A stretch of 64,000 bases of DNA from Pseudemcibacter aquimaris (GTDB lineage Bacteria; Pseudomonadota; Alphaproteobacteria; Sphingomonadales; Emcibacteraceae), in assembly GCF_028869115.1 (NCBI RefSeq), contig NZ_CP079800.1:1178001-1242000 (forward strand), read 5' to 3'. Below, in pieces: positions 2,777 to 18,895 of this stretch; the first letter of the stretch is position 1; each line of letters opens with the position of its first letter. The position numbers and the translations under genes are program-made. Under the pieces are notes generated by a model that did not search any database, was not told where the DNA came from, and worked only from the letters and a program-made list of their open reading frames with translations.

Positions 2777-5700
2777 TTGAAAAAATCAATATTAATGACA
2801 TTGATGATGACTGTGGCTATGCCAACGGGGCTAATGGCGCAGGATAACGATGAAAGCCCGATGAACAGTAGCACGTTCAAGGGGATGGAAATGCGAAATA
2901 TTGGCCCGTCATACATGTCTGGCCGAATTGCTGATGTTGCAGTTGATCAAAAGGATCCGGGTACATGGTACGCGGCTGTTGCATCTGGCGGTGTTTGGAA
3001 AACCGTAAATGCGGGTACAACATGGGACCCGATTTTTGACAATGAAAGTGTTTATTCAATTGGTGATGTTACCATTGATCCATCCAATTCAAATGTGATC
3101 TGGGTTGGTACTGGTGAAAATAATGCCGGTCGCCATATTGCATTTGGTGACGGGATTTATAAATCGGAAAATGGTGGTAAGTCCTGGAAAAATATGGGGC
3201 TTGAAAATTCAGAACATCTTGGTGATATCGTAATCCACCCTGAAGATGGCGATACAGTATGGGCGTCGGCACAAGGACCACTTTGGTCCAAAGGTGGCCA
3301 GCGCGGCGTATTTAAAACCACTGATGGCGGTAAAACATGGCGTAATACGCTTGAAATTGATGAATGGACTGGTGTTGGATCACTTGCCATTGACCCGAGC
3401 AACCCGGATATCCTTTATGCGGCAGCATGGCAACGCCAACGTACAATCGCGGCATTAATTGACACAGGACCTGGTTCCGCGCTTTATAAATCAACGGATG
3501 GCGGCGAAACATGGGAAAAAATGACCGAGGGGTTACCGAAAGGTAACATTGGTAAATCAAGTATTGCCGTTTCACCGATTGATCCGAATGTTGTTTATGC
3601 AACAATTGAACTGGATGAACGAAAAGGTGGGTTCTGGCGTTCAAGTGATAAGGGTGCAAGTTGGACAAAAATGTCCGACCGTGTATCAGGTGGTACAGGG
3701 CCACATTATTATCAGGAAATATTCGCAGACCCGCATACATTTGACATGGTTTATATGGCCAATAACTTAAGCGCTTATTCTATGGATGGTGGTAAAACCT
3801 GGACAGATATTAATCTTGTGAATAAGCACGTTGATGACCATGCATTCGCATTCCACCCAACCGATCCTGATTTCGTATTGATCGGTTCTGATGGTGGCCT
3901 ATACGAAAGCCGTGACAATATGAAGAAATGGCGCTTCATGCAGGGCATCAGTGCGGCACAATTTTATAAAATTGCAGCCGATGACACGTACCCGTTTTAT
4001 AACGTTTATGGCGGAACACAGGATAACTCAACACAAGGCGGCCCAAGCCGCACAATGCGCGCCGATGGTATGCGTAATGGTGATTGGTACCTGACGATGG
4101 GTGCTGATGGCCATCAACCAGCCGTTGAGCCGGGCAACCCGAACATCATGTATTCACAGTGGCAGCAGGGCGGATTAATGCGTCATGATAAATTACTACG
4201 TGAAAATGTGAATGTTAAGCCACAGGAAAGACCGGGCGAGCCAGCAGAAAGGTTCAACTGGGATGCACCGATTAATGTGTCCCATCATGATCCAAAGCGA
4301 CTTTATCATGCGTCACAACGTTTATGGCGTTCTGATGATCGTGGTGATAACTGGACACCAATTTCTGGTGATCTTACTAAAAACGGTAATCGTCTGACCT
4401 ATGAAATGATGGATACAACATGGGGTCCGGAAGCGGGCTGGGATCTTTCTGCCATGTCAAATTTCCATACGATCGCCAATGTGGCCGAAAGCCCGATTGA
4501 TGAAAATATTCTTTATGTCGGTACTGATGACGGCCTTATTCAGGTGACATCGGATGGTGGTGAAAACTGGACCCGAATTGAAATCGCTGATATTCGCGGC
4601 ATTCCTGCCAATTCATATGTGAATGATATTCGTGCTGACCGTTTTGATGCCGATACGGTTTATGCGGCCCTTGATAATCATAAAGAAGGGGATTACGCAC
4701 CATATCTGATTAAAAGTACCGACCGCGGTCGTACTTGGACGTCGATCACAAATGGCCTTCCTGAAAAATCGCTTGTGTGGCGAATTACACAGGATCATGT
4801 GAATAGCGATCTTATGTTCCTTGGGACAGAGTTTGGTATTTATTTCACCGTTGATGGTGGTGATAACTGGATCGAACTGGAAGGCGGTATGCCGACAATT
4901 TCCGTTCGCGACGTTCGTATTCAACGCCGTGAAAATGACCTTGTCGCCGGTAGCTTCGGTCGTGGTATTTTCATTCTTGATGATTATACACCGCTTCGTG
5001 GATTAAACGCAGAAACGCTTGAAAATGATGCGCTTTTATTCGCGGATGAAAAGGCACCATGGTACCGCGAAGATACACAGCACAGCGACAGTCAGGGCGA
5101 TGACCAATGGACGGCGAAAAATCCTGCTTTCGGTGAAACATTTACTTATTACCTGAAGGATAGCTTTAAAACGGCAAAACAGGTTCGTGTTGCCGCGGAT
5201 AAAGAAAAACGTGAAGACGGCGAGGGCGTTGATTATCCTGAATTCAGCACCCTTGAACAGGAACGCCGCGAACAAGACGCCGCCGTATACATCACCGTGC
5301 GTGATGCATCGGGTAATGTGGTTCGTACTGTTGATGCACCGAATAAAAAAGGTGTTCACCGTGTCACATGGAACCTACGTCATTCACCAATGAACGCGAT
5401 TGTAAATGAAAATAGCGGTACTGGTGGTTACAGCACACCGGGCGTGATGGCGATGCCGGGTAATTACACCGCGACATTACACGCACGTGTGAATGGTGCC
5501 TCTAGCCAGATTGCCGGACCGGTTAATTTTGAACTGGTTGATGTGACAGAAGCCGGCCTTGCGGGAGCAAGCCGTGCTGATGCATTCGCGTTCCAACGTG
5601 ATGTGGAAGCGGCCCGTGCGACATATGCTGCGGCCAATAACACCATTAGCGAATTACAAGCGAAACTCGGTCTTTACCATATGGCGATGGACCGTTCAAA

Positions 5701-17557: not shown

Positions 17558-17681
17558 GTATTTGTTCCTACTCATGAATAAAGTAAAAGTTAAAAGTTAA
17601 TTTTTGATTATGAAAAAATGCGAAGCTGTAGAAAAATTGCCACAATTATGCGATACTTCAAAAGATACAAGGAGATATCCC

Positions 17682-17990
17682 ATGAAAAAAATTATTACCG
17701 TTATTATGTGTTTGGGTCTGTTAGGAAGTATTAGTTCCGCGAACGCCATGAATAAGGCTGAACTTATTGATGCTCTGGCGTCAAATAGCGGCCTTAATAA
17801 GAAACAAGCTACAGAGGCTGTGAATGTAATTTTTGCGGAAATAAACCGTGCTGTAGCACGTGGCGAGCGCGTTATGCTTCCGAAATTTGGAACGTTTGCA
17901 CCCGCAGAAGATAGAACAAAAGGGGCGATATTTATTCCAGAAACAGCAATGAAGGTTAGACCATCTATTAAACGACGGAGTACTAATTAA
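17682..17990 (+). CDS. HU-family DNA-binding protein with a signal peptide
   Basis: 102 residues. Residues 1-22 form a textbook signal peptide: MKK, a hydrophobic core (ITVIMCLGLLG) and SSANA as signal peptidase I site. The remaining 80 residues begin MNKAELIDALA and run through ATEAVNVIFAEI and LPKFGTF, colinear with HU/IHF. The part after FGTF is about ten residues shorter than E. coli HU: the beta-arm motif RNPQTG, which carries the intercalating proline, is missing. The start is set by AAGGAGA (17669-17675) 6 bases before ATG 17682. The internal ATG at the HU domain start has no ribosome-binding site, so a cytosolic form is unlikely. The next gene starts 1 base after the stop. Confidence 0.85.
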   Translation: MKKIITVIMCLGLLGSISSANAMNKAELIDALASNSGLNKKQATEAVNVIFAEINRAVARGERVMLPKFGTFAPAEDRTKGAIFIPETAMKVRPSIKRRSTN

Positions 17991-17991
17991 C

Positions 17992-18333
17992 ATGCGGTTT
18001 TTAAGCTTTAGTCTTATATGTGTTCTCGCTGCCAGTACATCACTTGCGGCGGAAAAACGGGACCGGGCGCTTGTAAAACCGGGGGAAACATACGAATTAT
18101 GTATCGATCTTAATTTCGCACAAAAACTGGAATATGGTTTTATCAGTCGTCGTGCCATGAATTTTAATATTCATTTTGGCGAAGGTGACAATGTAAAATT
18201 CCCCGTCGCGGAACATTTAACCCGGGAAAAAAATGAAATATTCACTGCCATGGATGATCAGAAACATTGTTTGACATGGACAAATCCAAATGATCGCGGG
18301 CAGTGGGTCAATGTCATCTATAATATCCGATAA
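17992..18333 (+). CDS. small exported protein, possible GOLD-like fold
   Basis: 113 residues with a signal peptide (about 1-19, ending STSLAAE). The mature part has two cysteines (LCIDLNF and HCLTWTN) and alternating beta-type segments, including MNFNIHFGEG. The order 'x-F-N-I-H ... x-C-L-x-W-T-N ... V-x-x-I-Y-x-I' resembles GOLD-type beta-sandwich proteins of the periplasm, a weak structural guess. The ATG is 1 base after the stop of the exported HU-like gene, so the two are co-translated and probably both act outside the cytoplasm. The 3' end overlaps thpR. Confidence 0.65.
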   Translation: MRFLSFSLICVLAASTSLAAEKRDRALVKPGETYELCIDLNFAQKLEYGFISRRAMNFNIHFGEGDNVKFPVAEHLTREKNEIFTAMDDQKHCLTWTNPNDRGQWVNVIYNIR

Positions 18334-18895
18334 CAAAGACAATAATTCGGTACGCGTTTTTGTTGCTTTATCACTTAGTGGTGAAGTGATGGACGTATTA
18401 AAAACGCGTTCAATTGAATTGCAGCAACAGCTGTCTGATTTTAATATCCGCTGGGTGCCGTTTGAAAATTATCATATAACGTTGATTTTCATTGGAAATG
18501 TACCAGAAACCGATCTCGATCAATTACAGTTACTGATTAAAGAGGCGGTAAACGGTGTTAAACCATTTTCAGTAACACTTGGTGATACAACGTTATTCCC
18601 GCCGGATAATGAAAAAAAAGGGGTTATGATTGCATCCGTTGAAAATTCTGATGCGCTTGCTGATTTGCAATCACGTCTTGATGCAAGATTTCGCGAAGCA
18701 GGGTTTGATTTGGTGGTACGTCCTTATAGGCCGCATGTCACACTTTCCAGGTTAAGGCGGGCAAAAGTGACGGAAGAACATTTAATTAAAACAGGTGAAA
18801 CGTTCACGACTGACGTAAATCAGGTGCATTTATATTTCACAGAAAAACGGGACGGTCGGGTTTATAACGGGATACTCAGGACGGTTGATCTTTGA
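18311..18895 (+). CDS. thpR: RNA 2',3'-cyclic phosphodiesterase (2H family)
   Basis: About 194 residues of the 2H phosphoesterase superfamily, which opens 2',3'-cyclic phosphate ends on RNA (formerly 2'-5' RNA ligase LigT). The two catalytic H-x-T-x motifs are visible: HITL at about residue 51 and HVTL at about 138. The fold begins VRVFVALSLSGEV. The start could be ATG 18311 or 18290; both overlap the upstream gene, consistent with coupling to the exported pair. The stop is only 4 bases from the convergent EAL gene. Confidence 0.92.
   Translation: MSSIISDNKDNNSVRVFVALSLSGEVMDVLKTRSIELQQQLSDFNIRWVPFENYHITLIFIGNVPETDLDQLQLLIKEAVNGVKPFSVTLGDTTLFPPDNEKKGVMIASVENSDALADLQSRLDARFREAGFDLVVRPYRPHVTLSRLRRAKVTEEHLIKTGETFTTDVNQVHLYFTEKRDGRVYNGILRTVDL

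Follow-up and report, generated by a model that had tools for sequence, protein, structure and literature searches.

The 64,000-nucleotide stretch of Pseudemcibacter aquimaris DNA analyzed here, hereafter the window, contains a gene whose product joins an HU domain directly to a predicted Sec-type signal peptide. Export of the product, P0001, is well supported by the sequences of the gene and of its ortholog from a congeneric species (G008). The alignment likewise supports the loss of the proline-intercalating arm tip with which HU proteins act on DNA. We propose, with moderate confidence, that P0001 is a dedicated extracytoplasmic, basic HU-fold protein that coats or bridges polyanions without sharply bending them. 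The features of the locus are as follows.

17632..17657, plus strand: upstream block common to both orthologs (two-sequence DNA alignment), containing an extended -10-like TGCGATACT that stops 24 bases short of the ATG
17669..17675, plus strand: Shine-Dalgarno AAGGAGA for the signal-peptide start, identical letters in the G008 ortholog
17682..17990, plus strand: gene of the exported HU-domain protein (P0001, 102 aa), ortholog G008:C118:6580-6900, 69% identical
17682..17747, plus strand: Sec-type signal peptide MKKIITVIMCLGLLGSISSANA, 22 aa, from a rule-based test, with predicted cleavage after ANA placed by eye
17748..17987, plus strand: HU domain, 80 aa, net charge +6, pI 10.4, from PF00216 (residues 23-80) and a structure match
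17898..17936, plus strand: degenerate arm APAEDRTKGAIFI, 13 residues versus 21, without RNPxTG (19-sequence alignment)
17958..17987, plus strand: basic C-terminal tail RPSIKRRSTN, replacing the canonical HU GKALKDAVN helix (alignment with the ortholog)
17992..18333, plus strand: second small protein, P2, starting one base after the P0001 stop and passing the same leader rule

Re-reading the DNA, we found the initial annotation to be exact in the coordinates, stop, leader, junction and AAGGAGA position that it had given for P0001: the gene starts at ATG 17682, stops at 17988-17990 and has an internal ATG at 17748, and its translation reads MKKIITVIMCLGLLGSISSANA then MNKAELIDALASNSG, which, together with the PF00216 match, bears out the claim of a signal peptide joined without linker to an HU domain. 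The same annotation had held that the signal-peptide start alone has a good ribosome-binding site. Taking Shine-Dalgarno strength as the duplex energy with an anti-Shine-Dalgarno tail, we obtained -8.5 kcal/mol 5′ of ATG 17682, equaled by 2.2% of the 1697 plus-strand ATGs in the window, versus +0.1 kcal/mol 5′ of the internal ATG, equaled by 77% of them, in agreement with that claim. The corresponding energies in the G008 ortholog are -9.3 and +0.1, so that the one ortholog found offers no internal start with a conserved ribosome-binding site. We thus rejected translation from ATG 17748, which lacks a Shine-Dalgarno in both carrier genomes; occasional initiation at that codon would nevertheless be compatible with the Met that both carriers retain where the HU domain begins. 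Further upstream, the shared block with TGCGATACT may represent a promoter, a candidate that the alignment suggests; the element was not among the reports of a promoter consensus scan.

To the N terminus we applied a leader rule of our own, which asks for a basic n-region, a hydrophobic 10-mer and small residues at -3 and -1. P0001 passes it, as do 20 of the 147 six-frame ORFs in the real window and 16 of 949 ORFs from shuffled sequence; its best-scoring cleavage position is 20, versus 22 by eye. The G008 ortholog carries MKKLVLMIGVLAMSVTSAQA at the position of the P0001 leader and retains the leader type, the AxA|MNKAELIDAL junction and the Shine-Dalgarno. A predicted signal peptide is thus not lost in the ortholog (n = 1), and the leader-like N terminus of both exported HU proteins (2/2) speaks against the cytosolic, leaderless state that characterizes DNABII proteins. 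A lipoprotein was also considered and rejected, because Cys 10 follows Met and is missing from the ortholog leader, and no lipobox was seen by eye.

The part following the leader is recognizably HU. PF00216 matches residues 23-80 with 54.5 bits (E 1.4e-14, cut-off 22.4), covering positions 1-58 of the 90 in the profile, the sole partial match among the four in this genome. A PDB sequence search returned 31 distinct sequences of HU, IHF and relatives at E up to 0.01 (best 1.2e-10), in which the homology begins exactly at the internal Met encoded by ATG 17748. Residues 1-56 of the predicted model superpose on 1huu_C with 56 aligned residues, an rmsd of 1.5, 48% identity and a Z of 7.6, a score that, being below 8, may on its own mean no more than a common arrangement. 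The best Foldseek match to the P0001 model is HU at E 1.3e-3, with none at 1e-3 or better, and fold searches with the ortholog model likewise return HU and IHF. These models indicate that the two-helix plus beta HU core is retained. P0001 thus resembles the HU/IHF family (DNABII, PF00216) in this core, in its MNKxELI start and in its FGTF, but differs from it in having a leader, an arm 6-8 residues shorter without RNPxTG and a basic tail, and in falling far below the NCBIfam equivalog cut-offs for HU-alpha, HU-beta, IHF-alpha and IHF-beta (best 42.1 versus 111 bits). Neither the HU-HIG profile PF18291 (20.4 bits, cut-off 26.2) nor that of the bacterial CCDC81-like HU, PF18175 (18.3 bits, cut-off 35), was reached. 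A 22-row tree groups the two exported proteins (100/99) on a branch of 1.87 and leaves their place among HUs unsettled, the program warning of long branches meeting.

The arm was compared in an alignment of 19 sequences, comprising the two exported proteins and 17 hand-chosen rows (HUs of the order, the two IHFs of this genome, two Bacteroidaceae HUs and one prophage-like HU), and its length was counted between position 50 and the alignment column in which the window protein has its next proline, that of IFIP. It measures 13 residues in the window protein and 15 in the ortholog, versus 21 in 17/17 other rows; R/KNPxT is present in all 17 and in 0/2 exported proteins. The initial annotation had described the arm as missing and about ten residues shorter: the loss of RNPxTG stands, whereas the arm is present, shorter by 8 residues (by 6 in the ortholog). 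Its suggestion that this HU relative may have lost DNA bending is favored by the missing arm tip, as far as sequence alone can indicate. The tail reads RPSIKRRATN in the ortholog, differing in one residue with RPSIKRR identical, and the HU domain has a net charge of +6 in the window protein and +5 in the ortholog. AlphaFold confidence is modest for both models (mean pLDDT 76 and 70). Block means are 84-91 for the two helices (residues 1-40), 78-79 for the first strands, and 54-64 in the window protein or 43-55 in the ortholog for the arm and tail, a low confidence at which the models do not test the arm shortening.

Conservation was assessed on a single sequence pair, the window genome and G008, the latter being the one close relative returned by a protein search of 60 relatives (E 3e-33, 69% identical); the other matches listed, at 1.6e-9 to 4.5e-4, are of the strength that canonical HU and IHF give. 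In the HU part, 60 of 80 aligned codons specify the same residue, with pN 0.165 and a saturated pS of 0.783. In the leader, 9/20 residues are identical, with pN 0.444 and pS 0.469, a ratio that is rough at 20 codons. Judging by these counts, the HU part is under strong purifying selection and the letters of the leader are weakly constrained; a leader that keeps its type but not its letters is the pattern expected of an exported protein. Between the two carriers the HU part (75% identity) is better conserved than P2 (42%) and the neighboring LigT gene (40%), and less so than the permease (89.8%). We rejected an assembly artifact because G008 has the gene at this same locus, with synonymous change saturated.

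The exported protein is additional to separate genes for HU, IHF-alpha and IHF-beta in the window genome, whose four PF00216 matches are P0001 and three that we named canonical HU, IHF-beta and IHF-alpha from a reading of their sequences. Together with the leader, Shine-Dalgarno and junction kept in the ortholog, this supports the earlier view of a dedicated exported HU relative. In G008, an assembly of about 210 contigs that is 96% complete, the PF00216 scan found no canonical HU; the only two further PF00216 genes that it returned resemble IHFs in the length of the match and in the part of the profile covered. The missing HU may reflect an assembly gap or a real loss.

The exported form is rare and patchy within a more stable locus. 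It was found in 2/13 genomes of the genus and, with a two-row profile, in 2/32 genomes of the family. In the order, the same profile matched 4/396 genomes, namely the two carriers and two normal HUs, and in the class 8/385, namely the window genome and seven normal HUs, G008 not being among the matches; these two and seven extra matches at the profile cut-off have a normal arm by eye. A profile of the C-terminal half returned the two carriers and two weak stretches in the order (396 genomes), and the window genome and two weak stretches in the phylum (398 genomes); the four weak stretches were rejected as members, because their sequences do not look like HU and two are interrupted by a stop. 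The search for other HU proteins with signal peptides that the initial annotation had proposed thus yielded one, in G008, and no new carrier in the order, class or phylum samples, which hold one genome per species and were searched at thresholds of 1e-10 to 1e-12 that can miss divergent members. Across the 32 family genomes, PF00216 gave 1 to 5 matches per genome, the odd ones being G006:C15 (L031, at a contig edge), G022:C169 (two frames, with a stop) and two below cut-off (in G006 and G030). As a separate observation, an additional gene of the HU family, its product bearing an RNPxTG arm, lies among genes that look prophage-like by eye in locus L057 (G009:C23:6000-11479, at 4551-4853), directly downstream of a leader-bearing ORF that resembles an outer-membrane protein.

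Mobile elements gave no comparable protein among the matches inspected. Searches matched 37 phage records, none over 80% of the query, and 264 plasmid records, every best place below 60% identity, of which 5 matched over 80% or more of the query. Nine of the 30 matches listed (15 per search) were inspected: H27 and H28 are annotated as HU family, while H1, H2, H3, H7, H16, H20 and H29, read as sequence, all seven show an NPxT arm and, by eye, nothing leader-like joined to the HU start (the frame printed for H1 starts at its Met). Scanning viral_contigs with the two-row profile gave no relative; with the mature ortholog it gave 9 loci, with an NPxT arm in 9/9 and no leader by eye in 8/9, the ninth, L072, beginning at a contig end. 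The three Bacteroidaceae HUs found in genome_contigs have arms of the normal kind and, by eye, lack a leader.

Two HU-related systems offer points of comparison. The HU homolog of the Plasmodium apicoplast is targeted by an N-terminal leader. It and P0001 are thus both HU homologs with a leader, that of Plasmodium belonging to a eukaryotic organelle. It binds plastid DNA, according to a title cited in PMC11634067. The DNABII proteins of biofilms are also HU folds outside the cytoplasm, which P0001 would be if its export is right; P0001, however, encodes a Sec-type leader, whereas biofilm DNABII proteins are described in two reviews as being released by lysis, by unknown routes or, in H. influenzae, by a T4SS-like route (PMC9445418, PMC8878592). 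The former also names LPS and eDNA as ligands of HU and calls the mechanisms of HU secretion incompletely described (PMC9445418). No signal peptide on a bacterial HU was apparent in the titles and abstract openings of the open-access papers found, and an Anabaena surface-protein paper mentions “HU protein” once, in the title of a reference.

Based on these observations, our model is that P0001 would be made with a Sec signal peptide and cleaved after AxA, leaving the HU domain from its ancestral Met. The mature protein would then be released to the periplasm or beyond and would most likely dimerize via the retained HU core. Its basic body and RPSIKRR tail would bind polyanions, presumably DNA of the envelope or extracellular matrix, or LPS, while the short arm without RNPxTG would leave DNA coated or bridged rather than kinked. 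We favor coating without bending because the core appears retained, the charge is +6/+5, the tail is basic and conserved and the arm motif is lost, and because of the ligands that the HU review reports (PMC9445418).

The neighborhood of the gene bears on a different reading, which we consider possible though doubtful, in which the exported HU fold no longer binds nucleic acid and its dimer core serves as a periplasmic scaffold or chaperone-like partner, perhaps of P2. The loss of the RNPxTG arm would suit such a role, as would the position of P2 directly downstream and its passing of the same leader rule; moreover, in both carriers the permease and LigT genes flank a stretch in which the exported HU gene precedes P2. 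On the other hand, the HU part is still basic with RPSIKRR identical in both carriers, an opposite-strand gene sits between the exported HU and P2 genes in G008, and P2 homologs are present in five genomes without the exported HU. P2 homologs occur in 7/32 genomes of the family, all within this genus; the seven members have no Pfam match, and no PDB match was found. A third genome, G001, has permease, P2 and LigT genes adjacent without the exported HU. Its permease is closer to that of the window (93.5%) than that of G008 is, which indicates that the exported HU gene was lost or moved. We also noted that the P2 family has a leader-like start and two invariant Cys, and that its relatives in G010, G009 and G004 carry an HYHE motif and lie near a gene that reads by eye as a copper-type P-ATPase. 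The LigT/2′-5′ RNA ligase-like ORF (18290-18895) overlaps the end of P2 and is 40% identical to its G008 copy and 68% to that of G001.

Two further readings involve DNA entering the cell. Unlikely in our estimation is a Sec-exported “periplasmic histone” that would package incoming or matrix DNA without kinks, in a lineage that has ComEC and in which no ComEA is shown. We regard as distinctly improbable the more specific idea, raised in the initial annotation, of a DNA-uptake factor, in which P0001 would be a periplasmic DNA binder replacing ComEA beside ComEC. ComEA is an exported small DNA binder, as P0001 would be; its domain, however, is a helix-hairpin-helix, and P0001 has no HHH_3 match in a Pfam scan at E up to 1. 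The circumstantial points for such a factor are that the ComEC family is present in 11/13 genomes of the genus, both carriers included, and that HHH_3 (ComEA-type) is found in 0/13, while 11/14 control genomes are positive. Nevertheless, nine other genomes of the genus have ComEC without HHH_3 and without the exported HU, no competence gene was noticed among the ORFs listed near the exported HU gene, and the presence of ComEC does not in itself show transformability. Since just 2 of the 13 genomes have the exported HU, it is not a general uptake component in the genus. Finally, a fortuitous leader on a divergent cytosolic HU translated from ATG 17748 is very improbable, for although the HU homology begins exactly at that Met and no canonical HU was found in the fragmented G008 assembly, the internal ATG lacks a Shine-Dalgarno while the outer one is strong, both carriers keep the leader type, few shuffled ORFs pass the leader rule and the window genome has its canonical HU.

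Taken together, these results suggest that a fold built for packing DNA has here been redeployed beyond the cytoplasm. If this reading is true, having an HU domain and its export signal in one gene would open one route of HU export to genetic tests. The reduced arm would also offer a naturally occurring HU with which to separate the coating of DNA from its bending.
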